64,000 bases of DNA from contig OY282444.1 in NCBI GenBank assembly GCA_958296125.1, positions 682,001 to 746,000 of the forward strand. The letters are read 5' to 3'. How positions within the stretch are numbered: the stretch's first letter is position 1; every line of letters starts with the position of its first letter. Positions 25,151-40,428 of the stretch are shown piece by piece. The translations under genes were made by a program, and so were the position numbers. Under the pieces are notes generated by a model, which was not told the DNA's origin, did not search any database, and was given only the letters and a program-made list of their open reading frames with translations. This DNA comes from an uncultured Poribacteria bacterium (GTDB taxonomy: Bacteria > Poribacteria > WGA-4E > PCPOR2b).

Positions 25151-25171
25151 GGGCGGGTTTTCAACCCGCTC
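25151..25171. terminator. Hairpin between convergent genes
   Basis: gggcgggtt, loop ttc, aacccgctc forms a 9-bp stem with one G-T pair in the 26-base gap between two convergent genes. There is no T-run, so it may be a REP-like element acting as a bidirectional stop rather than a classical terminator. Confidence 0.45.
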
Positions 25172-25176
25172 CCGGG

Positions 25177-25851
25177 TTAAGACACGAATGCAACCTCGGG
25201 GGCAATACTTAAGAGCCAGATAATGATTGCCCCAAAACATGCTTTGGTTCTATCTGTATCGGTGAAAACGCGAATGGCTATCGCTATCACAGCGATATAC
25301 CATAAACTCAAGGGATTAAAGTGACTTAGAAACATTAGTAACTTGACGTTTTCACTTGAGCCCAATAGCAGATGGAGCCCCGGAATCATTTGCATATCGG
25401 TTATATTCTTGATACCTTCAACATCTCCAAAAACGACTAGCAATGCCGTATTGACCAGGGCTATCAGGATGCCAATCAACGAGGTATGTACAACGGCTGC
25501 ATAGATGTGTTTAAATTTTATCGCTTCATTTATTGCAAGAAATCGAGTTGATAGGGTGAGTATCGCACTCAGAATGAGAAACCAGAGAATCGATCCAACA
25601 GGCGGAGCAATAAAAGTGGATATTTGGGTAATTTTTTTGGCGATTTCAATTTGGTCAGAGGGCACTCCTTCTTCCGTCAGTTGTTGGTACATAATCTGTT
25701 CGATAAAGGGGAACATGGCCCACGCGATTCCAATAGAAAACAGACAAAAGATGACAATTGCCAATACCCACTTCGGCTCCGATTTGAGATGTGTAAACGC
25801 GGCTCCCGGTTCAGCGAAAATATCAGCGATATTCTGCCAACTGCCTTTCAT
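25177..25851 (-). CDS. Yip1-domain membrane protein
   Basis: 224 residues with about five hydrophobic segments (WVLAIVIFCLFSIGIAWAMF, VGSILWFLILSAILTL, HTSLIGILIALVNTALLVVF, PLSLWYIAVIAIAIRVF, FGAIIIWLLSIAPEVAF). The start, IADIFAEPGAAFTHLKSEPK, is typical of bacterial Yip1/DUF-type inner-membrane proteins. Function is unknown in bacteria. It is convergent with the radical SAM gene and appears monocistronic. Confidence 0.8.
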   Translation of the reverse strand: MKGSWQNIADIFAEPGAAFTHLKSEPKWVLAIVIFCLFSIGIAWAMFPFIEQIMYQQLTEEGVPSDQIEIAKKITQISTFIAPPVGSILWFLILSAILTLSTRFLAINEAIKFKHIYAAVVHTSLIGILIALVNTALLVVFGDVEGIKNITDMQMIPGLHLLLGSSENVKLLMFLSHFNPLSLWYIAVIAIAIRVFTDTDRTKACFGAIIIWLLSIAPEVAFVS

Positions 25852-26732
25852 AATTTTTCAGACTCCATTTTTTTAAAGGTTCTCAACAATCTGGGATGTT
25901 GATACCCGGTTTAGACATCAGGGCTTGTCGTTCGGGAATCGCTGCCATAGGATGTCCTTACTGGGACATTTTGCATGTTTTTTTGGTGACTGCATTGTAT
26001 TCTTAGGCATCCGCACCGCTCGGATAGACATATCCAAGCCGTTTCTGGGGATGTGCCGTGGATTTGTCAATCTACTGCGAGCGGTGTTGATTTTCAGCCC
26101 GGTTTGCAACGTTTCCCATAAGTGGCAACTTGAGTTATTATTAGGACTTATTGACATATTCTCTGTTCCAACTCGGCTTTTACCCCTGATGACTGTTTTC
26201 GGCAGGAAGCCTAGCTGTCAGTGCATTGTACACCAAAGCACTTTTGAAAACAAGAAAAAACAATGCTAAAGCAGGTCTGTATCCTAAACATGAATGTTTG
26301 GGATACAGACCTACAGGATTTTTGATAAAGCGCAAGGGCATAAAAGAAGGATGTTACCTCCCACTCTTCCATTTTTCTTCTGAGCGACTTTGCGTTAAAT
26401 CCAGAGAAAACCCCCTATCTACTTATTGCCGAAAATAATACCAATGCAGATCTGCGTTCCCTGGGGATCCATCCCCCCTCCTTGGATGACCGTCCCGCGC
26501 GGGAAGATTTTCGACAGGTTTTGTAGGAGTGATCTCCTGGTCGCGGCTCCCAGGGCTCATAAGGCTATCCCATGCGGGCAGACTTCCCACCTTGTCAAGT
26601 TAGCACCGTCCACGTTGACCTCGGAGACCGACACGGAAGAGGTTACCTTTGCATTGGAGCATCTTCAGCGGCTCTTGGACGGTGTAGGGGAAACGGTAAC
26701 GGGTGAAACGGAAGTTTTGGAGCATAATGTGT
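25852..26732. other. 881-base intergenic region, no confident gene
   Basis: No recognisable gene is seen. Open frames up to 114 codons (25925-26269, 26426-26770 on plus) lack family motifs and ribosome sites. The region holds a strong palindrome at 26273-26312 and a stray cttgagttattattaggact sequence near 26128 that resembles repeat ends elsewhere in the window. It separates the housekeeping-type genes on the left from the type III-B CRISPR locus on the right. Confidence 0.5.
26273..26312. repeat. 40-base near-perfect palindrome
   Basis: aggtctgtatcctaaacat and atgtttgggatacagacct are reverse complements with one G-T pair, separated by GA. This gives a 19-bp stem with a two-base centre. There is no T-run after it. 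It could be a cruciform or a REP/transposon end. Confidence 0.75.
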
Positions 26733-27827
26733 TCACTCCCAACCGAAGGCAGTGCGTACGTATTGATTAAACGCTTGCCGGAGATAATCCCACCTATCCT
26801 TTCCCCAAATTTCTAGGGACAGGCTTGAATGCCCTGTCGCCTCCTTCAATTCCGCTTGGATAAGCCGCTGGGCCTCTCGCGAAGCACCACACAGCACGAT
26901 GGCACGTGCTTCCACACCACCGAGTTGTCTCATCCGTAAAATAGCCTCCATCCCTTTTTGTTTCACTAAGCGGTGTTCATAAGCAAGAGTGCACGAAACG
27001 ACAACAATTTGGTACCCCAGTACCGCAACTACGTCCAGTTCAAACGGTTTAACACTTGCGTCTGTCGCATTAGCTCGCCGCACATATACCTTGTGGAAGA
27101 GTTTATAGTTCCTTCGATCCGGGCTCTGCCGAGCAATATCTGCCAAGGCACGCTGGAGGGCAGCATACGCACCGTACTCAAGAAGGTCAGAGGTGAGATT
27201 CATACCGCTCCTCAGGGCCGCACAACCCCTAGCCAACTGTTGTTCACTGAGGGTTCCGGGGGCGGTGCATTCTTTCGTTCGATTGTTACCCGATTCATCC
27301 CAGTATTCGTAGGGAAATGGGCCGAGTTCAAAGCCGTTGAGTTCAGCAACGCAATGCAGACAGGGCTTGACCCCCTTGCGAGTATCTGAGACTAAGGCAT
27401 TTCCATCCCGGTCTACGAGGGTCGCGCCTGAGTCAGCACGTGGATCCAGATAGGAGGTCTCTAAGTCAATCGGTTCCGATAAAACGGCTGTAACAGCTTC
27501 TGCAGCCACAACAGTTTCAACGCACATCACCTTAGTGCCACCCGTGTAGTGCACATGAATGCAAGTGGTATTGTCTGGTAAATTGTCCTTGAGATTCCGT
27601 GTAATGTCGTCGCGTACGGTAGATGGGTTCCCCGACACCGTTTCAACAGTATCACTAGAAAACGCGCCGCGACTACATTTCAGCAACCGGTCCCGTTCGG
27701 ACTTTGTTTCCTCCGTATACACAAGTCGTACATGAATCGGGTGTGGCAAGTGATCTTTCAAATGATGCAATGCCACCCAGACAGGTATCGGATTGGTTCC
27801 AACCGTAAGAATGAGGAGTGTGCCCAT
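26733..27827 (-). CDS. Card1/Can2-like CARF nuclease (DUF1887 type), ancillary to type III CRISPR
   Basis: 364 residues. The N-terminal CARF domain shows LLILTVGTNPIPVWVALHHL and, near residue 90, HVHYTGGTKVMCVETV, the loops that bind cyclic oligoadenylate. The C-terminal domain (about 225-364) is laid out like the PD-(D/E)xK nuclease of Card1/Can2: ELDVVAVLGYQIVVVSC near 262-280, a Lys-containing helix and RMRQLGGVEARAIVLCG. In the active-site strand the usual (E/Q)CK is replaced by VSCT, so the metal-binding Glu and the catalytic Lys are missing at their normal places. Cas10 in the same locus would supply the activator. It lies downstream of cmr6, separated by a CARF-HEPN remnant. Nuclease activity is not certain. 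Confidence 0.78.
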   Translation of the reverse strand: MGTLLILTVGTNPIPVWVALHHLKDHLPHPIHVRLVYTEETKSERDRLLKCSRGAFSSDTVETVSGNPSTVRDDITRNLKDNLPDNTTCIHVHYTGGTKVMCVETVVAAEAVTAVLSEPIDLETSYLDPRADSGATLVDRDGNALVSDTRKGVKPCLHCVAELNGFELGPFPYEYWDESGNNRTKECTAPGTLSEQQLARGCAALRSGMNLTSDLLEYGAYAALQRALADIARQSPDRRNYKLFHKVYVRRANATDASVKPFELDVVAVLGYQIVVVSCTLAYEHRLVKQKGMEAILRMRQLGGVEARAIVLCGASREAQRLIQAELKEATGHSSLSLEIWGKDRWDYLRQAFNQYVRTAFGWE

Positions 27828-27853
27828 AGCGGAAGTTTCTCCGTTTTTTATTT

Positions 27854-28197
27854 TTAAAATGGTTCGCTGTTGACCGTGGGTGGTGTCAATTCGCTCCCAA
27901 TTGGGGCGGGGAGAGCTGTCCTGTCTATGTGTCCGTAGATCTCCTTCCGCTTTTCACTATACTGGTTGAACAGCTCCTCATCCGTTCTGGTAGTGCTAGA
28001 GTTTGAATACACCGGATTGAGGGTATTGATTCCGTATTGTGCAAGGCGGTGTTGTTCAATTCATTCGAGAAGCCGATACAGAACCAGACACGCTATGTCA
28101 AGTTTCCCCTGCGATGCCCGACGGTGTGCGTTGTAATAGAGCGTAAACGCAAATCTGTGGTAAGTTTGTTAAGTTCGGCCAACTCGATTTGGGGCAT
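27854..28197 (-). pseudogene. Broken C-terminal HEPN part of a CARF-HEPN (TIGR02710-like) protein
   Basis: An ATG at 28197 after GAGGAGG opens with PQIELAELNKLTTDLRLRS. From there the recognisable sequence continues in a different frame as LYYNAHRRASQGKLDIACLV then LYRLLE, an in-frame TGA near 28068, then IEQHRLAQYGINTL, down to a TAA at 27854. This resembles the C-terminal HEPN domain of TIGR02710 CARF proteins (NAxRRAxxGxYDxAxxRLYRxLE, then QxRLxxYGI). One frameshift and one nonsense codon are present and the CARF half is gone. It lies between cmr6 and the Card1-like gene, so it is the trace of a third ancillary effector. Confidence 0.68.
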
Positions 28198-28213
28198 TAT
28201 GTTTTTCCTCCTC

Positions 28214-29572
28214 TTAGCCTTCAGTATCTTCATCCTTGGTGTATTCCCAAAATGTAAGTATTCCCTCATCAGCATCCGGCGTGCAACGAAAGTGTTTTGC
28301 AACGACAACCGATTCCATGTTCCCGTTACTCTTTTCAAGTTGATTGGAAACCGCTATTAACTCCTCTTGTACATCCACCAATTCGTCCGATGGTAATTTC
28401 TTGAGGGTTTTGCGAAAAGCAGTACTATAGATAAGTCGCGGAAGTTCCAAGATTCTTGACGAAAGCAGACTTGTTTTTAAGTTATCCCAGATCCATTTTC
28501 CAAAGTCCGATACCATCGCAGAATCCTCAATCGACTCAACCAAGGTTGGGAGGATTCCGGCTAATTGGCCCAGTTCAATAAAATCGTCCCGTGTCGCAAC
28601 CTGAGCCAGTTGTGCCGCGCAATTTTTAACCAACATAATGTCAATTAACTGCGGATCAGGATTGGGGTTGTTCGGATTGGAAAATTGCTTGTGAGCTTCA
28701 TCAAGGCTAATCTGGTTGGGCTTCTTGGGACGTGATCTGAGTGGAATTTGAAAGTTCGCGTTAGGTCTGAGACTTTTTGGGACACCGCTCCGCTTGCGGA
28801 AATATCCGTATCCGCTGGCGGTTTTTGCTCCCAAACCCTTGTCTCTCAATGTTTTGTCAACCCAATCTTTGGCACTGTTAATCAGATCCTGTTCCTTCGC
28901 CAAGATCACAAATCGAAAAGGCGTTTGCCCGACAGTCAAAAAGTTGATTGGGATTGGATTCTGCGTATCAGTGGGTAGCTCTGTGCCTGTGTAATAATTA
29001 GGAAAATGCGGATTCATTATATCAAGTGACAGGGGCACATTATCGATTGGATAGGCCGGGAGAAATTGAACATTTCCCGCGGATTTTTGGCTGCCAAAAA
29101 CAGCGAAGAAAGCCTTCTTTTTTTCTTGCAGATCTTCGTCGTCGCTATCTTTGATGTCTCGCATCGCCAAGTTTTCGTTGTTACTGAAATCTTCCTGAAT
29201 TACCCAACTTCGGACAACGCCCTTGAAGGTACTTCCAGGAAGATAAGGGATGCCGTAGACGTGCTCAAGCGTCATGTTAGTTTCCTGCACATGTCCGCCG
29301 CCAAGCCCAATAACCAGCCGCCCGTCGATCTCATAAAACCCGCAGAAAATACGGTAACTCTTTGCCAGATAGTGAAGTTGATTCGTCTGACGGTTTTTTA
29401 GGGGTACAATTGCGCGTTGCAAATCACCAAGATTCATTGTGTCAATTGAAAACTTAACTTTTCCACCGCTGTCTTGTTCATTTTCCAAGAAACACTGATA
29501 ACGCAAGGCGAAGTTTGAGATCTCATTGCGATTAACGAGGTCTTGTGTGTCAGATGGGCAATAAATCGGCAT
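28214..29572 (-). CDS. cmr6: Cmr6, type III-B effector subunit
   Basis: 452 residues. RAMP protein capping the Cmr complex near the 3' end of the crRNA. LVIGLGGGHVQETNMTLEHV followed by YGIPYLPGSTFKGVVRSWVI is the Cmr6 signature, and LRDKGLGAKTASGYGYF is the glycine-rich RAMP loop near residue 265. After it an extension of about 180 residues follows (beginning near GVPKSLRPN) that normal 250-320-residue Cmr6 proteins do not have; it is mostly predicted helical and has no motif I know. The start overlaps the stop of cmr5 (TGATG), so translation is coupled. It is the last intact gene of the cmr operon. Confidence 0.9.
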   Translation of the reverse strand: MPIYCPSDTQDLVNRNEISNFALRYQCFLENEQDSGGKVKFSIDTMNLGDLQRAIVPLKNRQTNQLHYLAKSYRIFCGFYEIDGRLVIGLGGGHVQETNMTLEHVYGIPYLPGSTFKGVVRSWVIQEDFSNNENLAMRDIKDSDDEDLQEKKKAFFAVFGSQKSAGNVQFLPAYPIDNVPLSLDIMNPHFPNYYTGTELPTDTQNPIPINFLTVGQTPFRFVILAKEQDLINSAKDWVDKTLRDKGLGAKTASGYGYFRKRSGVPKSLRPNANFQIPLRSRPKKPNQISLDEAHKQFSNPNNPNPDPQLIDIMLVKNCAAQLAQVATRDDFIELGQLAGILPTLVESIEDSAMVSDFGKWIWDNLKTSLLSSRILELPRLIYSTAFRKTLKKLPSDELVDVQEELIAVSNQLEKSNGNMESVVVAKHFRCTPDADEGILTFWEYTKDEDTEG

Positions 29573-29970
29573 CAGTTATCCTCCTCCACACCTTTCATCA
29601 GGCCATCAACGAACCGTCGAACCCAGTCCAATAACGCCAATGTCTCAGTCGTAATCCGGCGATATTCGTTGGAGGATTTACTAATAACGACCTCCACGAG
29701 TTCACTATTTTCACCCAATTCAATTAACTGCTTGCAGGCTAGCCATTCGCCAATCATATTATATAGTTTTGTGTTTCCGTCATCTCGTTTGTTGATGAAT
29801 GCCAATGTCTGTCCAAGCCCGTTGGTTTTGATGAGCACTGGAAGTTTTTTCGCGCCGGATTTGTACTTTTTCTTCAGATCTTCGTTAGAATTTTGGGCTA
29901 TCTCATTAACGCGATCATAAGCAAAGGCCGCACGTCCCTGTTCAATGCCTCTGATGCTGTTTTCGTTCAT
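29572..29970 (-). CDS. cmr5: Cmr5, small subunit of the type III-B complex
   Basis: 132 residues from ATG 29970, preceded by AAGGAGAC. An upstream in-frame ATG lies inside cmr4 and is less likely. RGIEQGRAAFAYDRVNEIAQ and VLIKTNGLGQTLAFINKR are the conserved helices of Cmr5, an all-alpha protein that lines the RNA channel as a filament. It starts 11 bases after cmr4 and overlaps cmr6. Confidence 0.92.
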   Translation of the reverse strand: MNENSIRGIEQGRAAFAYDRVNEIAQNSNEDLKKKYKSGAKKLPVLIKTNGLGQTLAFINKRDDGNTKLYNMIGEWLACKQLIELGENSELVEVVISKSSNEYRRITTETLALLDWVRRFVDGLMKGVEEDN

Positions 29971-29980
29971 TTCTGTCTCC

Positions 29981-30955
29981 TTAATCTCCATAGATTTTCG
30001 TCCGAACAATCCCTTTACCGATTGTTGCGTTTCCACCCAGTTGAATTACAGCCGGGAGCCCGTCTTCCAAGAATTCCATTACCTTTTCTGACTCATCGCG
30101 CTTCTCCTTTTTTTCTTGATCCGTCAACATAAAGAGACCTTTATCGGCATCGTTTTCCTGAAAGATGGGCGAGGTTAAGGCGAGTGAATAAAGAATCGAA
30201 TCGGAGGGGAGATATTCTTCGTACCACAAAGCTCCCTTTTGCACAGTTCCGGTTTCTTGGTTAATCTTGATTCGTGCGATGACCTCCGTTGAAAGTGTCA
30301 CAAAATCGCGAAAATCATCATTGCTCAACACGACGAGGTCTGTCTGCATTTTTTCGCGCCAATAACTATACTCGTCATCCGCAGGTAAGCCCTGCTTTGC
30401 AAGCCAGTTTGCCAGCTCATTTACGGTCGGATCGATCGTAACATCAAAGGTGTACTCTTCCAGCACGATCTTATTATCAGCAACAATAAGATTTGAGTAA
30501 TTGGGAATATAGTTGCTGCTCGTGATAGAGTGTTGGAAGTCAATATCACAGATCTGAAGGTCTTGTTTGAACCGCTCAAGCACAGCAGGGCAGGTAATCC
30601 ACCCGAAGACACCTGAAACCGACTTGACGGGGAAAAGCAACAAGCGAGCATCGGTAAAGCCTAGCGCGCCTGCGTATAGGTCCCCAGTCTCAGGGCCAAA
30701 GGCTAATTTAATGGCTTCCTTGTACTTAGCATCTTCGATGGAAGTGATATCCCAACCGAGCTGAAGCTGCGCTAGATTCGGTTGGGTGCTGAAAACTTCC
30801 CGGACCGCGCCCTTGATGCCCGATGCTTCGATCTTGGGATAGTTTGTATGTTTTTCGCGTTGGATTGGCAAATCGATGATGCCGAGATCGCTGCCACTTC
30901 CTACGTGCAATGATGTTTCAACAATTAAGAACAGAGGTTTTGCAGATTTGAACAT
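29981..30955 (-). CDS. cmr4: Cmr4, backbone RNase subunit
   Basis: 324 residues from ATG 30955 (AAGGAAA upstream); ATG 30973 is a possible longer start. KPLFLIVETSLHVGSGSDLG and IIDLPIQREKHTNYPKIEAS are the family signature; the Asp in GSGSDLG corresponds to the target-RNA-cleaving residue of Cmr4, so the complex should cut RNA at 6-nt spacing. GIKGAVREVF and the loop ATIGKGIVRTKI are the other RAMP glycine motifs. Several copies form the helical backbone on the crRNA. Confidence 0.94.
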   Translation of the reverse strand: MFKSAKPLFLIVETSLHVGSGSDLGIIDLPIQREKHTNYPKIEASGIKGAVREVFSTQPNLAQLQLGWDITSIEDAKYKEAIKLAFGPETGDLYAGALGFTDARLLLFPVKSVSGVFGWITCPAVLERFKQDLQICDIDFQHSITSSNYIPNYSNLIVADNKIVLEEYTFDVTIDPTVNELANWLAKQGLPADDEYSYWREKMQTDLVVLSNDDFRDFVTLSTEVIARIKINQETGTVQKGALWYEEYLPSDSILYSLALTSPIFQENDADKGLFMLTDQEKKEKRDESEKVMEFLEDGLPAVIQLGGNATIGKGIVRTKIYGD

Positions 30956-30972
30956 AATGGTTTCCTTCGTCA

Positions 30973-32064
30973 CTATTTTGACATTGCGCCAACATACGTC
31001 AGACCGAACCCTTCCTGTGTGCGTTGGGTGCCCATGTTTTTGTAATGCAAACAGTCTAAAATTGCATCAGTTTTTTCGCCGTTGATTACCCGAAAATAGT
31101 AAACACTCCCAGCAGGTACCGCACGATACACCTTTTTGGGGCGGCGGTGTGCAACATCCCATCCCCCAATAGTCACGTAATTCCCTACCGCGGCAGTAAT
31201 TAACTCAATATCCCCGTGGAAACACTTAGGCAACCAACCATCATTAAAAATCGCGTGTGTCGCTAAATAGAGTTTGAATTTTCCAGAGTCACGCACCATT
31301 TCTCGAACTGTAGAGCAGTCATCGGCTAAAATCGGGTCAGTTTTTTGGGTAGTTATCTTGTAGCTAAAACTTTTGCCCTCGCCGCCAAGTTTTATCAGTG
31401 CACTTTCGGGAAGCTGATCAATTCCATCAACATCAACGACAAATCCGAACTCCGAATCACTGAAGCGTTTCATGTTAATCCGATAAAGCATACCTTCGTC
31501 AGTTGCTAATGTCTTGTGACTTCGGGTGATACCCACCTTCGGTTCATCTATGATAAAGCCTGATTTTTCTGACGTTAGATTCGAGGTTTCACCAAGTAGG
31601 TATTTCCGCAAATTATCGCCCGAGATATAGCCACCTGCATGTTCAACCTGCACCGTGGAATTATTCCATGTCAGGAGTGTGGACAATTTGGAATTTGAGG
31701 AAAACGTATCACTTTGCGATTCCATCGATAGCGGATACAGTGTCGCGCTGCCCGATTTCTTCTCGGACACCAAATCGCGCGGGGTTGGATAGTAAAGAGG
31801 ACCATCACCACGTCCTAAGAATACCCCCTTAATCTGGATTGATGCACTTGCGAGCGACTGCTTTGTGCCAATAACCGATTTCATCTGGTCACTGGCAAAC
31901 CGCTCCATATCGCCGCAGAAAGCGATATAAGCAGTCCGCAATGCCCCCATTACTGTCGAAGGAGACGGCGTTTCAATTGAGTAGCCTTCCGATTGCTCCC
32001 CCCGCGTGAAGGGGCGGCCATCGCGGAAGAAAAAGGTGTCATTCGGTTTCAGAAACAGTCTCAT
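30973..32064 (-). CDS. cmr3: Cmr3, crRNA 5'-tag-binding RAMP subunit
   Basis: 363 residues from ATG 32064, inside the end of cas10 (26-base overlap). LKPNDTFFFRDGRPFTRGEQ and PSPSTVMGALRTAYIAFCGD are characteristic of Cmr3, which holds the 5' tag of the crRNA together with Cmr2. The C-terminus has FGLTYVGAM. An upstream in-frame start at 32115 would add 17 residues with no family match. Confidence 0.92.
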   Translation of the reverse strand: MRLFLKPNDTFFFRDGRPFTRGEQSEGYSIETPSPSTVMGALRTAYIAFCGDMERFASDQMKSVIGTKQSLASASIQIKGVFLGRGDGPLYYPTPRDLVSEKKSGSATLYPLSMESQSDTFSSNSKLSTLLTWNNSTVQVEHAGGYISGDNLRKYLLGETSNLTSEKSGFIIDEPKVGITRSHKTLATDEGMLYRINMKRFSDSEFGFVVDVDGIDQLPESALIKLGGEGKSFSYKITTQKTDPILADDCSTVREMVRDSGKFKLYLATHAIFNDGWLPKCFHGDIELITAAVGNYVTIGGWDVAHRRPKKVYRAVPAGSVYYFRVINGEKTDAILDCLHYKNMGTQRTQEGFGLTYVGAMSK

Positions 32065-33961
32065 CTGTTTTGGCCTCCCGCGCGATAAAATTGATAATCT
32101 CCAAAAAACTGACAAAGTCGCTAAATTTCATCCGCTCGTTAGCCAGCAAAGCGGTTAAATCTTGAACATTGTTATGAATCTTCTGTTGAATTTCTGTATC
32201 TGAACAAACAGTTTCGCTCGTCGCCCGTCGGATCAAGCGTTCAAGTTCCGCCTCAACTAAGTGGGGCAATTCAAGTACACCATTGCGGTTGGCGAGTCGT
32301 GCAAAGACCTCACGGAAAGTATACATGAATTTCTTGGAAACTTCCCCTTTCTTGATAATTTCAACGAGGGTTTGGCTCACTGTAATCATATCAATGTTCA
32401 CGCCACTCTCATCCTTATATTTCCATTTGAAAACCGTCTGCGAGATATTACCAGAGTGCTTCAACAGCGCGATACCGACGGCGTTTTTCCCATCAACAGA
32501 TTTTGCCTCCCGCTCCATGGCGCGGGCTCGATTAAGCACATCGCCAAGCGGTACTTTGCAGTGGGCAATACAAATACCTACGGATGCTGTTGATGCCGGA
32601 TTATCCTCTCCATTTAGGTTTGGAAAACTCCATCGAAGTCTACAAAGGATTTTCAGCAAATCGCTCAGGTTTGCCAATGCGAGTACGTCGTCACCGCCGG
32701 CATAGATGAGCTTTCCAAGGTAGTCTTTCTCCACAATTTGCTGAACTTTTGTCGTATACTCATTCAGTTTACTGCTAATCTTGGTATGTGCTTCCGAGTC
32801 CTCGGATTGCGAGATTGTCTGTCCCATTCCGTCTCCGTCAAGGACGATCACCGCAAAGTATCGGCTTGCATCGAAGCCAATATGATTGTTGATAAGCTTC
32901 CGGCGCAACTTGTCGCATTGGCTGATTACTACCCTCTGCTCCATTTGCACTTTTTTACTAATTCCGTGGTAACGTTCAAGATTTTGCTCCGAAAAAGACT
33001 CCTCAAAAAGCCAATCTCCATCAACATTCCAACTCTTTTGAATTTCTCTGAGCTTAGGAACAGGATCCACAGTCACTTCAAGCTTATTGTTATTAGTATC
33101 TTTAAACGTGCTAACTGCCTCAACAAACTTCTTGTATGTCTCTGTTGCCTCATCATCATCCGCGATTTGAAGTTTGAAGTCAGCAGTGGCCACCTCCGAG
33201 GTTGATTGAAAAGAGAGATTTTTTATCTCTGGATGTTTTTTGCCGAAATACTCCCCGGCAAGACGCTTGGTAAGACAAACCGTGCAAAGTGCCTCATCCT
33301 GTCGACAGTATTTCGCACGACGCTGGGCAAACCGCCGCCACCATTTCATCGGGTCCCCTTTGCCGTTGTGAAATATTTCCCGGTCCCCACAGAGCGAACA
33401 TTTTCGTCCACTTTCGTTAACCTGATAGAAGGCGCGGCAGTTTTTGGCAGAAGCAAGCCGCGTTCCGGTTTTGGCATACCAATCCTTATACTCCCCACGG
33501 CACCCACTTGAAACAACCCAATAGAGCTCAAAAAAATGCTTAATCTGTTTTCTAAAGAGCTCAGCCGCGTAAGTATTATCCCATGCCCCTTTATTAACAA
33601 TCTTAACAAAGATCTCAACCGCGTGTTTTGCCATCTTTTCAAATTCACATTGGACAGCCGCTTCAACATACCGCATCGTTTGGGTTAATTCGTCAATTGA
33701 CAGATTTTCACTCATGGCGAGAAAGAGGTTCGGAAACGAGGGAAGCGTAATATCTGCATTCTGCCAGGATTCAAATGGCGAACCGTTTTCAATTGAGGGA
33801 TAGATGATTTTGACACCCTCTTTATTGTAAATCTGATTAATTGCGGTTGCGTTGAGATATGATAGAATATAGCTACCAAGCCATAAATCTTCCGTTTTCC
33901 GTGCGGTTGTGATAAATTTTTGTACGGGCGTAATCGTGAATAGGATGAGATTTTCAGTCAT
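32039..33961 (-). CDS. cmr2: Cas10 (Cmr2), cyclic-oligoadenylate synthase of the type III-B complex
   Basis: 640 residues. The N-terminus (LILFTITPVQKFITTARKTE, then DLWLGSYILSYL) is the Cmr2 opening; no N-terminal HD nuclease domain is present, so DNA cleavage by this subunit is not expected. A zinc finger is seen as CSLCG near residue 190 and CTVC near 225. The first Palm domain has DGDGMGQT near 373 and the second has the active motif YAGGDDVLAL near 420, intact, so it should convert ATP to cyclic oligoadenylate when target RNA binds. The C-terminal part is helical (D4). Start ATG 33961, 9 bases after cmr1. Confidence 0.94.
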   Translation of the reverse strand: MTENLILFTITPVQKFITTARKTEDLWLGSYILSYLNATAINQIYNKEGVKIIYPSIENGSPFESWQNADITLPSFPNLFLAMSENLSIDELTQTMRYVEAAVQCEFEKMAKHAVEIFVKIVNKGAWDNTYAAELFRKQIKHFFELYWVVSSGCRGEYKDWYAKTGTRLASAKNCRAFYQVNESGRKCSLCGDREIFHNGKGDPMKWWRRFAQRRAKYCRQDEALCTVCLTKRLAGEYFGKKHPEIKNLSFQSTSEVATADFKLQIADDDEATETYKKFVEAVSTFKDTNNNKLEVTVDPVPKLREIQKSWNVDGDWLFEESFSEQNLERYHGISKKVQMEQRVVISQCDKLRRKLINNHIGFDASRYFAVIVLDGDGMGQTISQSEDSEAHTKISSKLNEYTTKVQQIVEKDYLGKLIYAGGDDVLALANLSDLLKILCRLRWSFPNLNGEDNPASTASVGICIAHCKVPLGDVLNRARAMEREAKSVDGKNAVGIALLKHSGNISQTVFKWKYKDESGVNIDMITVSQTLVEIIKKGEVSKKFMYTFREVFARLANRNGVLELPHLVEAELERLIRRATSETVCSDTEIQQKIHNNVQDLTALLANERMKFSDFVSFLEIINFIAREAKTDETVSETE

Positions 33962-33970
33962 TATGTATTC

Positions 33971-34801
33971 CTATGCCAAAATTGCGGCAATAAAAGCCAC
34001 CTGTTTCTGCTTATAGTTGTGAGGGTCCGCGCCTGGAAAAACAGAGTTAAGTTGTGTGACAATCGGGACAAATTTATTGCCAATTTTCTGAATACGAACG
34101 TGAATCGGCGAAGCCATCCGTGGAGAGGCACTACCCAAAGCGTTATCGCTATGGTCATGTGTTGCCTGCCCGATCCTGCGGAGTAGGTCATTGACATTAT
34201 CCCATAATGTATTACTGAAATGGACTGCTTTAATCACTGGGTAGTCTGGAAGCCGAATTGTGGGGTCAACCTGAATCTTATTAGGATTTTCCTGGAATCG
34301 CCCTGGTGAAATCCCGATAAGCGTTTGATACACTTTTTTTTCAAGTTCCGCGACGGTCTGAAAACTCCAATCTTGATAACGGATTGAACCAAATCCCCTT
34401 CGTGAGCGATTACCAACGCCGCCGAGCAGGAAGCTAATTTCAGCAATTTGCCTGTATTGGTTAAGCTGTAGGGCTACGAACTTGAGGTTAAATGTGCTGT
34501 TAGGACGGTAAGCTTGCCTCTTAAAGCTACCAGATTTATGCGGAAGAGGGGCACATTCGTCAAACGGTAATGCTGGTACGCTGGGAATACGAATCGATAA
34601 AGGCGATCTGCCTTGCGTATTACCGAATAAGCGGCTTTCCTCTTTGTGCAGATTGTCTACGTTCATTTTCCCCACCGTTGCCCGCCACCAGTAGCGAAAC
34701 AAGGCTTTGAACGGCGGTGGTCGAAGTTCGAGCGTTTGGTTGTCTGCCCCATGAAGAAACATCGGTGTCACGGTTTCAAGTTTCAACTGAATACTTTTCA
34801 T
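33971..34801 (-). CDS. cmr1: Cmr1, RAMP subunit of the type III-B complex
   Basis: 276 residues, at the short end for Cmr1. LKLETVTPMFLHGADNQTLE, LRPPPFKALFRYWWRA and GGVGNRSRRGFGSIRY are its signature (FKxxFRxWWRA and the glycine-rich loop). It binds near the 3' end of the crRNA at the target-capture end. It is the first gene of the operon cmr1-cas10-cmr3-cmr4-cmr5-cmr6. The 145 bases upstream contain no gene and then a direct repeat. Confidence 0.92.
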   Translation of the reverse strand: MKSIQLKLETVTPMFLHGADNQTLELRPPPFKALFRYWWRATVGKMNVDNLHKEESRLFGNTQGRSPLSIRIPSVPALPFDECAPLPHKSGSFKRQAYRPNSTFNLKFVALQLNQYRQIAEISFLLGGVGNRSRRGFGSIRYQDWSFQTVAELEKKVYQTLIGISPGRFQENPNKIQVDPTIRLPDYPVIKAVHFSNTLWDNVNDLLRRIGQATHDHSDNALGSASPRMASPIHVRIQKIGNKFVPIVTQLNSVFPGADPHNYKQKQVAFIAAILA

Positions 34802-34947
34802 TGTGCTTTTCCTTGAATTGGGCTTGGCCAGGGGATAGGTTTCCCGAAGTAATAAGACTGTGTAAAATCAGTTTAACCTGTCTAACAATCTTTTGTCAAA
34901 AAAATTGCCATTGAAATACAGTTGATACGTCATCACGCTGTTTAATT

Positions 34948-35133
34948 TGCATCCCCTGAACACTCCTCGATGGCCGACAAATAGAGTGTAACACAACATC
35001 ACTTTAATGTCAAATGCCAACGTTTTTTGTGCGCGTCTGGACGGGCAATAAATTGCCCTACTACAAACCAGGAGGGTTTCAGCTTCGGTCAAGCCAATGG
35101 CAATCACTCTCCACAAACGGATCACTGTCCTGC
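34948..35133. repeat. Direct repeat, copy 1 (flanks the CARF-HEPN-CARF gene)
   Basis: 186 bases from tgcatcccctgaacactc to gatcactgtcctgc, about 85% identical by eye to 37099-37282 with almost no length change. It includes the last 18 codons and 3' flank of the CARF gene, a hairpin (gggcaat, aa, attgccc near 35043) and the block acacaacatcactttaatgt. It is not a CRISPR repeat: only two copies, too long, and coding in part. Confidence 0.8.
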
Positions 35134-36860
35134 TCTTCTATTGGCCGGCGGTCGACGAGGGCGAAGCGTTTTATCGGACGATCCAATTTCTGGGCATCTT
35201 CAGAGAGCCGTTGCACAATCAGGCCCATCAGTGTTGTGCCACCCGTCATGTTGGCCACGACCTTGTCGGAATTTAACAGATAGCGATGGGCATGTTCCGC
35301 TGCTGCATCGATCTCATCAAAACCGCCGAACGGATCTGTCAATTCGATCTGTTTAATAGGACCTTCAAAGTCCGCACGTTTGGCAGCTTCAGTAATACTA
35401 CCTGCTGATGTGGCTGAACAAATCACCAGACAGGTATCAGGTCGGGCGACCTTTAATGCTGAGAACAACACGCCTGGCTTCGTCCCTTGCGGTGAAAGCA
35501 GAAGCCGACCACCATTACCGCCCAGCGGTGGCAGGTCAATCCTACCTTTTTTCAGTTCATTCCAAAAACCTCGAACATCTTCAAGAGAATTGGGAGGTTC
35601 TTCAAGCAGATCTTCACGCATTGCATGATGGTGGAGTGCATTGCGTAACTCATTCGTCAGTTGATTCCAGAAGGTGCCGAATTCCTTCTGCTCATCTGTA
35701 ATAGTGGATCTGAACGCCGGATCTCTGACAAAGGCTCCGATAGCCCCAAGGCGATGCTCATACGACTGCCGTAGTTTGTAAGTTAGCCAAGCTCCAGTTT
35801 TCTCGTAGGACTGGCCTGAGTTCCAAATTGCCCAAGAAATTACCCACTCACGCATCAAGCCCACTGCTAGTGAAAGTTGGTCGCGACCCAAGTACAAATC
35901 AATCATATAAGCCTGCCGCTTCAACTCATTTTCATCTAAAGGGATTTTGCGTTTCCAGTTCTTCCCTCCGCTTGGAGGCGTTGCAAAAGCCGATTTTTCT
36001 GCTGCGCTGACGATAGCCTCAACGAGTTCGGCAATCAGGGGCGGGAGTCCGGCAAAATTTATAGTGGGAAGTTGTTGAATTGGAGTAATGAGTGCCTTAC
36101 TGGCTTTTTCTAATTCTAGCGGCAAGGCGGACTCGTAAGCAAATGCATACTTTTTGAGCCAATCGACCGAGCTTTTGGCTTGTTTGGCTTGCTCGTTACG
36201 CTGCGTCCCCGCTTTCTGGTTACCGGACTTGAACAGCTTGCTCTTTTTCTGCATTAGTACATCTGCCAATGGCTGAAGGAGGTCCGCCATAGGCTTTGTT
36301 GTCCCCTGATCTCGAAACATCCGCACCGCGTGGAACCACTCCGGCAATTCAAGTAATGGCTGCAGGTCAATGATGGGTTTAGGCGTGTTTGGTGGAGATC
36401 CTTCTATCATGCCGTAATAGGCACCGCGAATCTTGACACCGCGAAGCGATTTAAGGTAGAGCACTAAAGCATAGAAGATAAATGGAAAATGTCGTAGCCC
36501 TTGCGTGACATCAAGCGTGAGTTCCGCGCCTTCTGGAATGCGTTCGGCAACAGATTCAAGAATCTGACCGATTTCTTCACGGCTGCTTCCGTTGGGGATA
36601 TCAACCCTTTCAGGGTCAAAGCCGAGGATTTGGAAAATTCCTGCCTGAAAGGTTTTCCACGTCGTATTCTTGGCCTCTTGCGTGATCACAGCGACAACGC
36701 TGTTAGGCAGCTGCTCAGGTTTTAGAAGTTGCACCAAAGCTAATGGGGTAAGTTCCGCTTCGGCCGGTTGCCCATCCAACTCGTATTCCGTTTTTCGGGC
36801 CTGCGTCCCCAAACTTGTCAATAGAATATGATCCGATGGCTGGTAGATCGTCGTCTCCAT
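35079..36860 (-). CDS. CARF-HEPN-CARF protein, type III CRISPR ancillary RNase
   Basis: 593 residues from ATG 36860 (GGAG upstream; an upstream TTG at 36875 is less likely). Residues about 8-160 are a CARF domain of the TM1812/Csx1 kind (ILLTSLGTQARKTEYELDGQ, then LTLDVTQGLRHFPFIFYAL and YYGMIEG). Residues about 300-440 are helical and contain RNALHHHAM near 404, an Rx4H motif of HEPN RNases. Residues about 447-593 look like a second CARF domain: LLLSPQGTKPGVLFSALKVA, then CLVICSATSAGS, and NMTGGTTLMGLIVQRL near 537. Two sensor domains around one HEPN is unusual; ordinary Csx1/Csm6 has one. It should cut RNA non-specifically when Cas10 makes cyclic oligoadenylate. It lies 277 bases upstream of cmr1, within a direct repeat pair. 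Confidence 0.85.
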   Translation of the reverse strand: METTIYQPSDHILLTSLGTQARKTEYELDGQPAEAELTPLALVQLLKPEQLPNSVVAVITQEAKNTTWKTFQAGIFQILGFDPERVDIPNGSSREEIGQILESVAERIPEGAELTLDVTQGLRHFPFIFYALVLYLKSLRGVKIRGAYYGMIEGSPPNTPKPIIDLQPLLELPEWFHAVRMFRDQGTTKPMADLLQPLADVLMQKKSKLFKSGNQKAGTQRNEQAKQAKSSVDWLKKYAFAYESALPLELEKASKALITPIQQLPTINFAGLPPLIAELVEAIVSAAEKSAFATPPSGGKNWKRKIPLDENELKRQAYMIDLYLGRDQLSLAVGLMREWVISWAIWNSGQSYEKTGAWLTYKLRQSYEHRLGAIGAFVRDPAFRSTITDEQKEFGTFWNQLTNELRNALHHHAMREDLLEEPPNSLEDVRGFWNELKKGRIDLPPLGGNGGRLLLSPQGTKPGVLFSALKVARPDTCLVICSATSAGSITEAAKRADFEGPIKQIELTDPFGGFDEIDAAAEHAHRYLLNSDKVVANMTGGTTLMGLIVQRLSEDAQKLDRPIKRFALVDRRPIEEQDSDPFVESDCHWLDRS

Positions 36861-36957
36861 AGGAATTGGCTCCAATTTCTGTTTGTAAGCTTAAACTGAA
36901 TAGTCCTGTGCCTGTGATTGAGATACAGTTCCTACGTCATCCCGTAACTTTGTCTGC

Positions 36958-37096
36958 TAGGACTTATGCACTTCAGATTACAGTAGCTCAATTTAGGGAG
37001 CGTCCGTGCCTCCGTTCCGCCTGGTCTCGGAACGGACCCGATCTCATCGAGAGGTTGCCCCTACGAGACTTTGAACGTTCAACTACGTAAGTCCTA
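36958..37096. mobile_element. 139-base MITE with inverted ends and 5-base target duplication
   Basis: The left end is TAGGACTTATG and the right end reads CGTAAGTCCTA, its reverse complement with one change. TCTGC occurs directly on both sides (36953-36957 and 37097-37101), as expected for a target-site duplication. It encodes nothing and must have been moved by a transposase elsewhere. It separates the CARF-HEPN-CARF promoter region from the outer direct repeat. Confidence 0.75.
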
Positions 37097-37098
37097 TC

Positions 37099-37282
37099 TG
37101 CATCCCCTGAACACTCTTCGATGGCTGACAAATAGAGTGTAACACAACATCACTTTAATGTCAAATGCCAACGTTTTTTCGCGCTGCTGGACGGGCAATA
37201 AATTGCCATACTACAAGCCAGAGCGTTTCAGCTTCAATTAAGTCTGTGAGAATCTCCCTGCACAAACGGATTACTGTCCTGC
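37099..37282. repeat. Direct repeat, copy 2, with a vestigial CARF gene 3' end
   Basis: This is the second copy of 34948-35133. Read on the minus strand, 37282-37234 encodes QDSNPFVQGDSHRLN and a stop, matching the end of the intact protein (QDSDPFVESDCHWLDRS). Upstream of it the match stops and a TAA appears in frame, so only the last codons of a former paralogue remain. The 3' flank is better conserved than the codons. Confidence 0.75.
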
Positions 37283-37670
37283 CCATAGGGAACGGAAACA
37301 ACTTAGAACCGTGCGAATACGGCAGTGTGGGGCCTTCAAATCGGGCAGGCAATAGGGTCATTTAATTCTCACATATTATTGTCTGAATCACGGATAAACA
37401 CGGATTGATGGATGATACGGATAAAAGACGGTCTCGACAGCTGACATAAGAAGGCGCAATAAATGCTCACTTACAAACAGCGGGGCAAGATGCCCCGCCT
37501 ACCGGGTGTGGGGATAGAACGTGCGGCTACAAACAGCGGAGCATGAGCCAAAACCGAAAACTAAATAGCCCTAGGCGAGCAAGAAAACAGCGTTGATATA
37601 TCGATCACGATGTGATACAATTTGTAAAAATGTTCAGCTTGCTTATTATACCAAGGGGGTTTAGATAAAA
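37283..37670. other. Intergenic region with a REP-like hairpin
   Basis: No gene is seen. At 37480-37498 gcggggca, loop aga, tgccccgc forms a perfect 8-bp hairpin followed by ctacc, the same design as 7682-7701, 49686-49720 and 60025-60045. Near 37390-37430 short repeats of acacggat / atacggat occur. The propeller gene at 37671 has no strong ribosome site. Confidence 0.5.
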
Positions 37671-38969
37671 ATGGAAGATAGAGCTTGCGCCTTGCTGAGA
37701 CGGTTCGCCACGGTGTTGTTTGGTACTTGGTATTTAGTTGGTAGCGTGTTGAGTGCTAAAGCGGAGTGGCCCCAATGGCGTGGACCTAATCGCGATGGAG
37801 TTTCCAATGAAGTGGGGCTCCTCAAGGTGTGGCCCGCGAACGGTCCCAAAGTGCTTTGGAAGGTTCCAATCGGAGAGGGATTTTCTGGCATCTCCGTTTC
37901 TCAGGAACGGGTTTACACCATGTTCTCCAAAGGAGACGACGAGTTTGTCGTCTGCCTTGATGCCACAGATGGGGGAGAAATTTGGCGTTTCCGATCGGAT
38001 AAAAATTACCACGAGGGTCAGGGCGGCAATGGGCCACGTGCGACACCGACGATTGACGGGGATCTCCTCTTTACAATCAGTGCCCACGGCAAATTGTATG
38101 CCCTGAACGCTGGGAATGGGCATACAATTTGGTCGCATGACCTACAGCAAAAGTTCGGCAGCAAAATGCCGAGATGGGGGTTCAGCACATCGCCGCTGGT
38201 TGATGGGGAGTTGCTTCTGGTCGAAGTCGGTGGGAAAGGTGAAAAATCTATCGTTGCTTTTCATACAAACACCGGTGATGTGATATGGAGTTCTCATAAA
38301 GACAAACTTGGATACTCATCGCCTATCGCCATTACGGTCAAGGGGGTTCGACAAATCATCTGTTTTACAGGGACTCAGCTGGTTTCCGTCTCTCCAACCG
38401 ATGGAACAATCTACTGGAAATACCCGTGGAAGACCGGCTATGATGTCAACGCCGCCACGCCGATCTTTATTCCACCGGATAAAGTCTTCATATCCTCCGG
38501 GTATGGCAAGGGTGCCGCCATGCTAGGGATGAGAGTTTTTGTTTCGCCCGATGATGAGCGCACCGCAAGGGTACAAATCAGGGAAAACCAAAGTAAAATC
38601 AGGGTTGAAGAAATCTGGAAGAGTCGCAAACTAAAGAACCATTTTGCCTCTTCAGTTCTTCACGGAAATCATCTGTATGGCTTCGACAATTCCATCTTGA
38701 AGTGCATTGAGGCAAACACCGGCGAGGAACAGTGGAAGACCCGTGGATTTGGAAAGGGTACGGTGATGCTCGCTGATGGCTACTTGATTATTCTCAGCGA
38801 CCGTGGCAAGTTGGGGCTAGCTAAGGCAACGCCTTCGGGATATACAGAAAAAGCGAGTGCGAAAGTGCTGAGTGGACTCTGCTGGACTGTGCCGACGCTT
38901 GCGAATGGTAAACTTTACGTGCGAAACGAGAAAGAAATGGTCTGTTTAGACATGACAGGGAAGCATTAA
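37671..38969 (+). CDS. Secreted PQQ-type beta-propeller protein
   Basis: 432 residues. A signal segment (TVLFGTWYLVGSVLSAKA) precedes EWPQWRGPNRDGVSNEVG, the standard entry motif. Blades: VVCLDATDGGEIWRFRSDK, LYALNAGNGHTIWSHDLQQ, IVAFHTNTGDVIWSSHKDK, LVSVSPTDGTIYWKYPW and LKCIEANTGEEQWKTRGFG. No enzymatic motif is recognised; a structural or binding role is likely. Its closest layout in the window is the N-terminal part of the 9598 protein. It stands alone between the CRISPR locus and the enolase-superfamily gene. Confidence 0.85.
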   Translation: MEDRACALLRRFATVLFGTWYLVGSVLSAKAEWPQWRGPNRDGVSNEVGLLKVWPANGPKVLWKVPIGEGFSGISVSQERVYTMFSKGDDEFVVCLDATDGGEIWRFRSDKNYHEGQGGNGPRATPTIDGDLLFTISAHGKLYALNAGNGHTIWSHDLQQKFGSKMPRWGFSTSPLVDGELLLVEVGGKGEKSIVAFHTNTGDVIWSSHKDKLGYSSPIAITVKGVRQIICFTGTQLVSVSPTDGTIYWKYPWKTGYDVNAATPIFIPPDKVFISSGYGKGAAMLGMRVFVSPDDERTARVQIRENQSKIRVEEIWKSRKLKNHFASSVLHGNHLYGFDNSILKCIEANTGEEQWKTRGFGKGTVMLADGYLIILSDRGKLGLAKATPSGYTEKASAKVLSGLCWTVPTLANGKLYVRNEKEMVCLDMTGKH

Positions 38970-39075
38970 GAAAAGCGAGGTTGATGCGGTGATGGCGATG
39001 CTTCTCCCCATATTTTGATCGCAATAAGTCTATATCTACTTATCCCCCTTTGGATTCTATTTGGGAGGACTTTTT

Positions 39076-40428
39076 ATGTCCAAAAGCACGGACATTCGGA
39101 TTCTGGATGTCAGTTGTGATTTTGAGGAATATCAATACCGTACCCCGCTCAAATTCGGTGGTGTCGCGATAGATAATTGTGGACTGCTGAATGTGCGTAT
39201 ACAGGTGCAGACACGCGATGGAAAAGAGGCAGTCGGTTTCGGGTCTATGACGCTCAGCAATGTGTGGGCGTTTCCACCGCGTTACGTCCCCTTTGACCAA
39301 AGTCTTGAGGCGATGAAGCGTCTCTCAGGACAGCTGGTTGAGGCCACACGCGAATGCGATCTGTGCGCTCACCCCGTAGATTTCTCCGAGGCACTTGAAC
39401 CTGAATTCCTGCGAATCGCAGCCGGTCTCTCTACGGAGATGCAGCTCGCCACACCAATTCCGAAGCTCTGCACGGTAGTTGCAGCAAGCCCCATTGATGC
39501 AGCCCTCCACGATGGATTCGGTAAGGCAAACGGTATCAACAGCTACGATGGGCTCAGTGAAGATTTCATGAGCCACGACCTCTCGCACTACCTTAATGAA
39601 AAATTCGCAGGTAAGTACCTTGACCAATACACCTTGCGAAAGCCGAAGCCAAAGATGCCGCTCTACCATCTGGTCGGCGCGCTTGACCCACTGACCGATG
39701 CTGATATTCCGAACCGTCTCAATGACGGACTGCCCGAAACGTTGCCGGAGTGGATTGTCGCAGATGGATTGACACATCTGAAAATTAAGCTGAATGGAGA
39801 TGACTTAGACTGGGATGTGCAGCGGGTGCTTTCGATTGAGAAAATCACCGCCGAAACACAGGCAGGACGGGGTGTGAGTGAATGGTATTACTCTGCGGAC
39901 TTCAATGAAACCTGCCAAGATGTCGAGTACCTGTTGGCGTTTCTGCACAAAATTCAGGAGGGTGAGGGACACGCCTTTGAACGGTTGGCTTACATCGAGC
40001 AGCCGACAAATCGAGATCTCAAGGCACACCCCGATAACAAAATGCACCGAGCAGCAGAGATTAAACCGGTCGTCATCGACGAGGCACTGACCGACTTTGA
40101 AACTTTTCAACTCGCACGAGAACAGGGCTATTCTGGTGTCGCACTCAAGGCGTGTAAGGGACAATCTCAAGCGTTGCTTATGGGGGCTGCGGCGATTGAA
40201 TACGATATGTTCTTGGCGGTACAGGATCTGACCTGCCCGGGGGCATCATTCCTGCATTCTGCAGGACTGGCTGCGCGGGTACCACGAGTCACCGCAATTG
40301 AGGGGAACTCTCGCCAATACTGTCCTGTGGCAAACGAGGTGTGGAAGGACAGATTTCCCTCAATTTTTAATATTACTGACGGAACGGTGGGCACTCATGT
40401 TCTGACAGGCAATGGGCTAGGACATTAG
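39076..40428 (+). CDS. Enolase-superfamily protein (mandelate racemase/muconate lactonising type)
   Basis: 450 residues from ATG 39076 with GGGAGGA upstream. The C-terminal barrel shows the expected catalytic set: THLKIKLNGDD (KxK, near 235), SADFNE, YIEQPTNR, VVIDEALTDF and GVALKACKGQSQALL (Lys on the last strands). An N-terminal capping domain is present. Such enzymes abstract a proton next to a carboxylate in acid sugars or dipeptides; the substrate cannot be told. Near the middle a long loop (residues about 100-190) is larger than usual. Confidence 0.85.
   Translation: MSKSTDIRILDVSCDFEEYQYRTPLKFGGVAIDNCGLLNVRIQVQTRDGKEAVGFGSMTLSNVWAFPPRYVPFDQSLEAMKRLSGQLVEATRECDLCAHPVDFSEALEPEFLRIAAGLSTEMQLATPIPKLCTVVAASPIDAALHDGFGKANGINSYDGLSEDFMSHDLSHYLNEKFAGKYLDQYTLRKPKPKMPLYHLVGALDPLTDADIPNRLNDGLPETLPEWIVADGLTHLKIKLNGDDLDWDVQRVLSIEKITAETQAGRGVSEWYYSADFNETCQDVEYLLAFLHKIQEGEGHAFERLAYIEQPTNRDLKAHPDNKMHRAAEIKPVVIDEALTDFETFQLAREQGYSGVALKACKGQSQALLMGAAAIEYDMFLAVQDLTCPGASFLHSAGLAARVPRVTAIEGNSRQYCPVANEVWKDRFPSIFNITDGTVGTHVLTGNGLGH

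Follow-up and report, generated by a model that had tools for sequence, protein, structure and literature searches.

Genes are lost and gained through homologous recombination between direct repeats that flank them. The ancillary effectors of type III CRISPR loci differ widely from locus to locus, and the exchange of an effector without breakage of the adjoining operon is seldom visible. The described systems closest to the locus considered here are type III-B (Cmr) loci that carry cOA-activated CARF-HEPN effectors of the Csx1/Csm6 kind together with Csx3/Crn3. As outlined in published accounts, the CARF-HEPN proteins described so far in PMC11229360 are ribonucleases activated by cOA, and Csx3 is the cA4-cleaving ring nuclease Crn3 (PMC12409355; PMC7371418). 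The present locus resembles these in its cmr1-6, in the protein that I call CHC, a CARF-HEPN protein with a second CARF, and in the csx3 that stands beside CHC in relatives. Then there is Csm6-2, outlined in PMC11229360 as a CARF-HEPN-CARF-HEPN fusion, which has in common with CHC two CARF domains and a HEPN in one chain.

The locus and its genes

The window, the whole stretch of 64,000 nucleotides that was analysed (G000:C1:682001-746000), lies inside one contig of 5,156,246 bases in a Poribacteria genome, and its relatives are likewise Candidatus Poribacteria. It holds all of cmr1 to cmr6, with cas10/cmr2 among them, and the system is type III-B. By profile matches, cmr1 (33971-34801), cmr2 (cas10; 32039-33961), cmr3 (30973-32115), cmr4 (29981-30973), cmr5 (29572-30036) and cmr6 (28214-29572) are all on the reverse strand, as is an intact CHC gene at 35079-36860. 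CHC matches the PADLOC model CARF2--CARF_HEPN_CARF PDLC01840 over its full length (E 5.6e-142, protein 9-591, model 3-544 of 547) and contains the catalytic R-x4-6-H of HEPN domains, here RNALHH (R-x4-H) at residue 406; a search of Pfam at E 0.001 gave zero matches for it. Judged by this sequence, CHC is predicted to be a CRISPR-linked ribonuclease effector.

A second CARF effector (26733-27827, reverse strand) has its best matches in Csx1 PDLC01512 and in CARF-PDDEXK models, and behind it, on the same strand, are the first 31 codons of a cas6 (26633-26725). Another cas6 of this genome is at G000:C1:1252566-1253489 and is 37% identical to that of G007, a genome of the same genus. The product of cmr6 is long (452 aa), and its residues 311-423 match the CARF_RelE model PDLC01934 (205-315, E 1.8e-16), as if part of another CRISPR effector had been fused to it. 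A k-mer scan and TRF found no CRISPR-like array in the window, an adjoining array being common for III-B and not obligatory; the regular signals that they gave are 66-base tandem repeats at 61842-63658 (61842-62289 and 63012-63658), which we take to be probably a repeat-protein gene. Rfam gave zero families at 24000-40000.

A repeat made of a gene end and a predicted promoter

CHC is bracketed by two copies of a unit that I call T, consisting of the last codons of CHC, a small hairpin and a predicted promoter of the sigma-70 type. Repeat search and alignment place the inner copy, which leads into cmr1, at 34945-35133 and the outer copy, where the CHC tail is a relic, at 37096-37282, both on the reverse strand. 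They are 87.8% identical over 189 columns (local BLAST), and the direct repeat that the initial annotation had placed here is real. The direct-repeat families within it, D1 (84 nt, 96%), D2 (62 nt, 79%) and D3 (48 nt, 88%), have one spacing of 2149-2151, and CHC is the sole long ORF between the copies. The brackets are direct, not inverted, and CHC plus T has neither a recombinase of its own nor inverted ends that bound it, as a transposable element would. When 34940-35140 was searched against its own genome of 5.16 Mb, T was found in two places only, as a pair (100%; 88%, E 3.0e-61), and a third match, at G000:C1:5076023, comprised 38 bases of the hairpin region only.

The likeness of the copies extends through all parts of T: 54/69 columns are identical in the tail, 27/28 in the hairpin and 84/90 in the promoter part. 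The tail and hairpin together (81/97) differ from the promoter part in identity, weakly (Fisher p 0.043). The outcome that would have told against a shared coding end, identity confined to the non-coding half, did not appear. The hairpin, of the form GGGCAAT..ATTGCCC, has its core GGGCAATAAATTGCCC at 35043-35058 in the inner copy, and the core of the outer copy is at 37193-37208. This core is dispersed, with 1-6 exact matches in 5/6 genomes of the genus. A terminator scan found no intrinsic terminator in T.

The inner copy carries the tail codons of the intact gene, QDSDPFVESDCHWLDRS (35079-35132), and the outer copy still encodes the relic QDSNPFVQGDSHRLN (37234-37281), each read on the reverse strand and each with its stop, as had been claimed. 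Aligned by translation, the two differ in eight codons, with six amino-acid changes, one Arg-to-stop and a single change that is synonymous (the count that the initial annotation had suggested making); a widely conserved tryptophan of the CHC tail has become arginine. This is the pattern one would see in a sequence freed from selection at the protein level. A degenerate tail pattern matches the 64-kb window exactly twice, at the two T tails. The tail peptide (D/E..PFV..HWLD) also ends CHC in repeat-less loci of G069, G065 (two loci), G043 and G058, and a pattern search found it at CHC ends in two Latescibacterota loci and one Planctomycetota locus. Since CHC proteins of repeat-less relatives have this peptide as their own end, the outer copy is a CHC remnant; that it belonged to an unrelated gene, the second outcome that had been named as fatal, did not appear. 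A relic of csx3 or of some other gene was considered and rejected, the tail being CHC's own and csx3 stopping before it in G006 and G007. No CHC tail was found by pattern search before cmr1 in six CHC-less cmr loci outside the genus (G040, G011, G016, G068, G033, G025).

Gene ends have been left behind elsewhere. In G067 (L058 7172-7201, reverse strand) a CHC relative ends after HEPN, without the second CARF, and the CHC tail codons FVESNFHWLN plus stop are found about 100 bases past the stop of that gene, as though a deletion had taken the second CARF and spared the tail. In G040 (L105 919-1014, reverse-complement reading) csx3 is reduced to its last 34 codons, directly before cmr1, another 3'-end relic at the same spot.

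A 139-bp element, presumably MITE-like, interrupts the outer copy at 36958-37096. Its ends are inverted (TAGGACTTAYGYA..) with TA at both, and parts of it match many places in the genus. Past the element the outer copy resumes at 36905-36957 (reverse strand; repeat family D5) and runs into the CHC leader, 28 nt at 36917-36944 matching 34910-34937 at 86%; the element is therefore younger than the duplication. On its other side the relic abuts, at 37283-37319 on the reverse strand, the left flank of a lost csx3; G006 and G007 have the same sequence upstream of their csx3. A lone CRISPR-repeat-like sequence, GTTTCAATTCCCT, is found upstream of csx3 in those two genomes and at a cmr-free place in G008 (L060, L008, L122), and the window has an altered form of it at 37283-37300, the edge of the csx3 deletion.

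The promoter part of T

A promoter-like TTGACA-17-TACACT stands in the inner T before cmr1 (34985-35013) and in the outer T before CHC (37136-37164), both on the reverse strand. The scan that found them gave 6 sites against an average of 2.9 in shuffles and by itself is no proof; conservation is more telling. Across 72 genomes, TTGACANNAAAGTGATGTT has five exact matches, all before type III genes: CHC and cmr1 of the window, cmr1 of G016, and cas6 of G018 and of G020. With one mismatch or none allowed, there are 11, the additional places being cmr1 of G033, two in G027, and one each in G059, G064 and G070. By the queries used, no type III gene is near the last three; in G027 there is no type III match at either place, the first of which is presumably inside a WD40-like coding region.

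A longer consensus tells a similar story. It is matched at 21-22 of 22 positions at six type III places and at 10-14 before nearly all other genes tested (one cmr3 reaches 16), and random 330-base stretches of the same loci mostly give 10-15, except those that overlap the sites. In G006 and G007 the score is 15-17 of 22, a degenerate motif, which counts against the proposal made below. Two families of the order share the promoter-like motif TTTGACANNAAAGTGATGTTNTGNTA before cmr1, cas6 and CHC (window, G016, G018, G020, G033); it is possible that it represents a common type III promoter class or a regulator's site. The promoter half of T looks like an old promoter of a type III operon, one that the outer copy would have placed before CHC as well.

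Occupied and empty sites in related genomes

The search of relatives for one, two or no copies, proposed by the initial annotation, showed three arrangements before cmr1 within the genus. In G006 the order is csx3, a relic reading GAGCAGGACAGCAATCC..GCTTGACTGAAGCC, hairpin, promoter, cmr1: one T and no CHC. The gene upstream of csx3, which we take to be PQQ-like, is 82% identical to its counterpart in the window, and cmr2 is 79% identical to the window's. It is the gene order of PQQ-like gene, csx3 and cmr1 that ties G006 to the window. The whole G006 genome gives nothing above a 33% partial match to CHC, and another CARF-HEPN-like gene, after cmr6, is 26% identical to it. A short contig with CHC could be absent from the bin, though the assembled contig crosses the site unbroken. 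In G007 the order is csx3, a relic with the same 24-base deletion as in G006, hairpin, promoter, CHC, T, cmr1: two T with CHC. The window has T, CHC, T, cmr1 and has lost csx3, which is absent from its entire genome (6 of the 72 genomes searched have a match, the window's not among them). Occupied and empty sites are thus both seen, as states that differ between species. The genus sample comprises two genomes with the bracket and one with the empty site, all the relatives being drafts and only the window being in a single contig, which counts against the proposal made below.

Outside the genus, G065 (C129) has an order without any relic: csx3, a short leader, CHC, cmr1. The leader resembles the one found after T in both the window and G007, and therefore T sits between csx3 and leader. 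A DNA search for the 3' end of CHC in the 2.5 kb upstream found it in 2/9 CHC-type loci, the window and G007 (the nine being the window, L008, L052-L056, L058 and L059; L057, without upstream sequence, L060, with only a distant 26% relative, and L061, without CHC, were dropped before the count). When 12 loci, including three added from other phyla, were searched with the peptide, the window alone had the whole relic, and G007 had six residues of it. Matches to CHC at E 0.001 occur in 19/72 genomes of the order, several of them only weak or partial and to other CARF proteins; at E 1e-60 a search of the phylum found no CHC loci beyond those of the order.

A possible route of effector exchange

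I propose, with a probability of about 0.66, that CHC is lost, regained or swapped here through homologous recombination between T copies, and that cmr1 is left with a promoter each time. The starting points are the repeat itself, the CHC origin of the relic, the states of one T and two T within one genus, the likeness of the copies within a genome and the differing lineages of CHC inside one and the same bracket. From these I infer a crossover in T as the mechanism, the function of the promoter and the direction of each change. T would be the junction of CHC and the next operon, with the tail of the one, the hairpin, and the promoter that drives cmr1. The second T would date from a time when a CHC gene stood in tandem with T upstream, the outer tail codons being its remains. 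A crossover between the copies would loop out CHC with one T, leaving one T and a cmr1 with its promoter (the state of G006), and a crossover in T could also restore or exchange CHC together with one T. Gene conversion between the copies would keep both alike. CHC would be transcribed from the outer T and cmr1 from the inner T. Because each of the two T copies holds both the CHC end and the signal at which cmr1 starts, cmr1 would never be without its promoter.

The four T copies of the window and G007 have 15 columns that divide two against two, of which 14 group the copies by genome and 1 by position (10 against 1 without the 4 that adjoin an indel). The copies arose independently in the two lineages, or conversion has kept them alike; both origins require recombination at this place. 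The single T of G006 agrees with the outer copy of G007 at 7/9 differing columns on its left side, and on its right side with the inner copy at 7/11, with the outer at 2 and with neither at 2 (Fisher p 0.057, the last left out). This is suggestive of a mosaic of the two G007 copies, and gives no direction; it would fit a crossover between outer and inner copy and also an insertion into a single T. Part of it is explained by orthology of the flanks, by position alone, and the mosaic is a weak point of the proposal as well as a hint. A further point against it is that the 24-base deletion of G006 and G007 is absent from the window's relic, whose left joint differs too, so that this relic could be a separate event.

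The cargo has a history of its own. A tree of CHC places the window's protein beside those of Latescibacterota, G069 and one G065 gene, and that of G007 beside G058, G043 and the second gene of G065 (branch 96/93, rising to 100/99 when the Planctomycetota row is left out). A single clade of the window and G007 genes is rejected (p-AU 0.00124 with 10 rows, 0.000716 with 9 rows). By parts, it is rejected for the middle (0.0103) and the C-terminal CARF (0.00143) and is permitted by the N-terminal CARF third (0.232), which speaks against the proposal. CHC of the window and of G007 are 68% identical as proteins, an unrelated neighbour gene is 90-91% identical between the window and G006/G007, and G006 and G007 share csx3 at 88%, cas6 at 91% and cas2 at 93%. 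The window and G007 thus have the bracket in common, and its cargo is not of one descent. G007 has a Cmr module of a different type (its cmr2 is 48% identical to the window's), and the switch lies inside cmr1, after about 100 bases of genus-type sequence. This seam makes the Cmr exchange separate from the bracket; a swap of CHC along with the whole cmr module is not needed, the start of cmr1 still being of the genus type. G007 also has a CARF-RelE gene between cmr3 and cmr4 (L008 7554-8915).

The rival that survives best shares this mechanism and fixes its direction, so that its probability overlaps with that of the proposal: the relic is older, in the order csx3, relic T, cmr1 of G006, and CHC with T was inserted later by crossover in T, separately in the lineages of the window and G007. 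It accounts for the differing CHC lineages and for copies being alike in any one genome, and it yields the same mosaic in G006 and G007. The donor, however, must already have had T beside CHC, so that an earlier T-CHC-T or its circle is required, and the outer tail of the window is no closer to the G006 relic (34/45) than to its own inner copy (54/69). I consider this version possible, and less likely than the proposal in its general form.

The initial annotation offered either a lost tandem paralogue or a cassette added by recombination. Of this, the outer copy as a 3' relic of CHC is supported, and G006 has exactly the gene-less one-T state that recombination in the repeat would yield or begin with; intact tandem paralogues were found in no locus examined, and T-CHC-T may have begun with tandem paralogues or with an insertion. 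A stricter form of the first idea would have the upstream paralogue lost by ordinary deletions, nothing moved since, and CHC lost from G006 by an unrelated deletion. The continuation of T into the CHC leader (AGWTTAARCYTRYAAACAGA), which in G065 directly follows csx3, makes a joint such as a tandem duplication of leader, CHC and T would produce, and the G040 and G067 remnants are 3'-end relics of the kind it requires. It is too much to ask of ordinary deletions, however, that T copies group by genome, that the two bracketed genomes hold different CHC lineages, and that G006 holds exactly one full T with no ragged scar, and I regard this account as improbable. That T is a dispersed repeat inserted twice by chance can be dismissed: its hairpin core does recur around the genus, but the whole 185-base unit, with its codons and promoter beyond the core, is one pair at a single place in the genome. 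An assembly artefact is just as implausible, draft comparators notwithstanding, when the copies differ by 12%, one holds a 139-bp element, the window is in a single 5.16-Mb contig, and G007, a separate assembly, shows the same order.

The proposal goes beyond the initial annotation in the promoter common to other type III operons, the 139-bp element, the loss of csx3 and the other CHC lineage of G007. It would explain how an effector is lost with its csx3 off-switch kept (G006), or the reverse (the window), and T offers a concrete and testable route of effector exchange: sister species show the site occupied and empty, and the same bracket encloses two lineages of effector. One may go further and suppose that CHC plus T is a live on/off module, that within a single population some cells carry the ribonuclease effector and others do not, and that recombination in T always rebuilds the promoter of the Cmr operon. 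I think this doubtful. If true, immunity keeps its interference complex while the arm that does collateral damage is dropped or swapped for another allele.

Comparison with known systems

Literature searches with narrow terms turned up no precedent for CHC within T in titles and the starts of abstracts. The gain and loss of a gene by recombination is a known kind of process, and the locus resembles other cases of flanking repeats in having states of one and two repeats at one site and copies that are kept alike. Against Csm6-2, as it is outlined in PMC11229360, CHC is a protein of about 593 aa with an end-to-end match to CARF-HEPN-CARF and no room for a second HEPN, and its neighbour system is III-B, not III-D. 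Unlike the type III-B loci with Csx3/Crn3, the window is without csx3, and its effector lies between duplicated units of gene end plus promoter. And unlike the usual flanking repeats, T joins the end of its own cargo to the promoter of the operon that follows, so that a promoter remains in either state.
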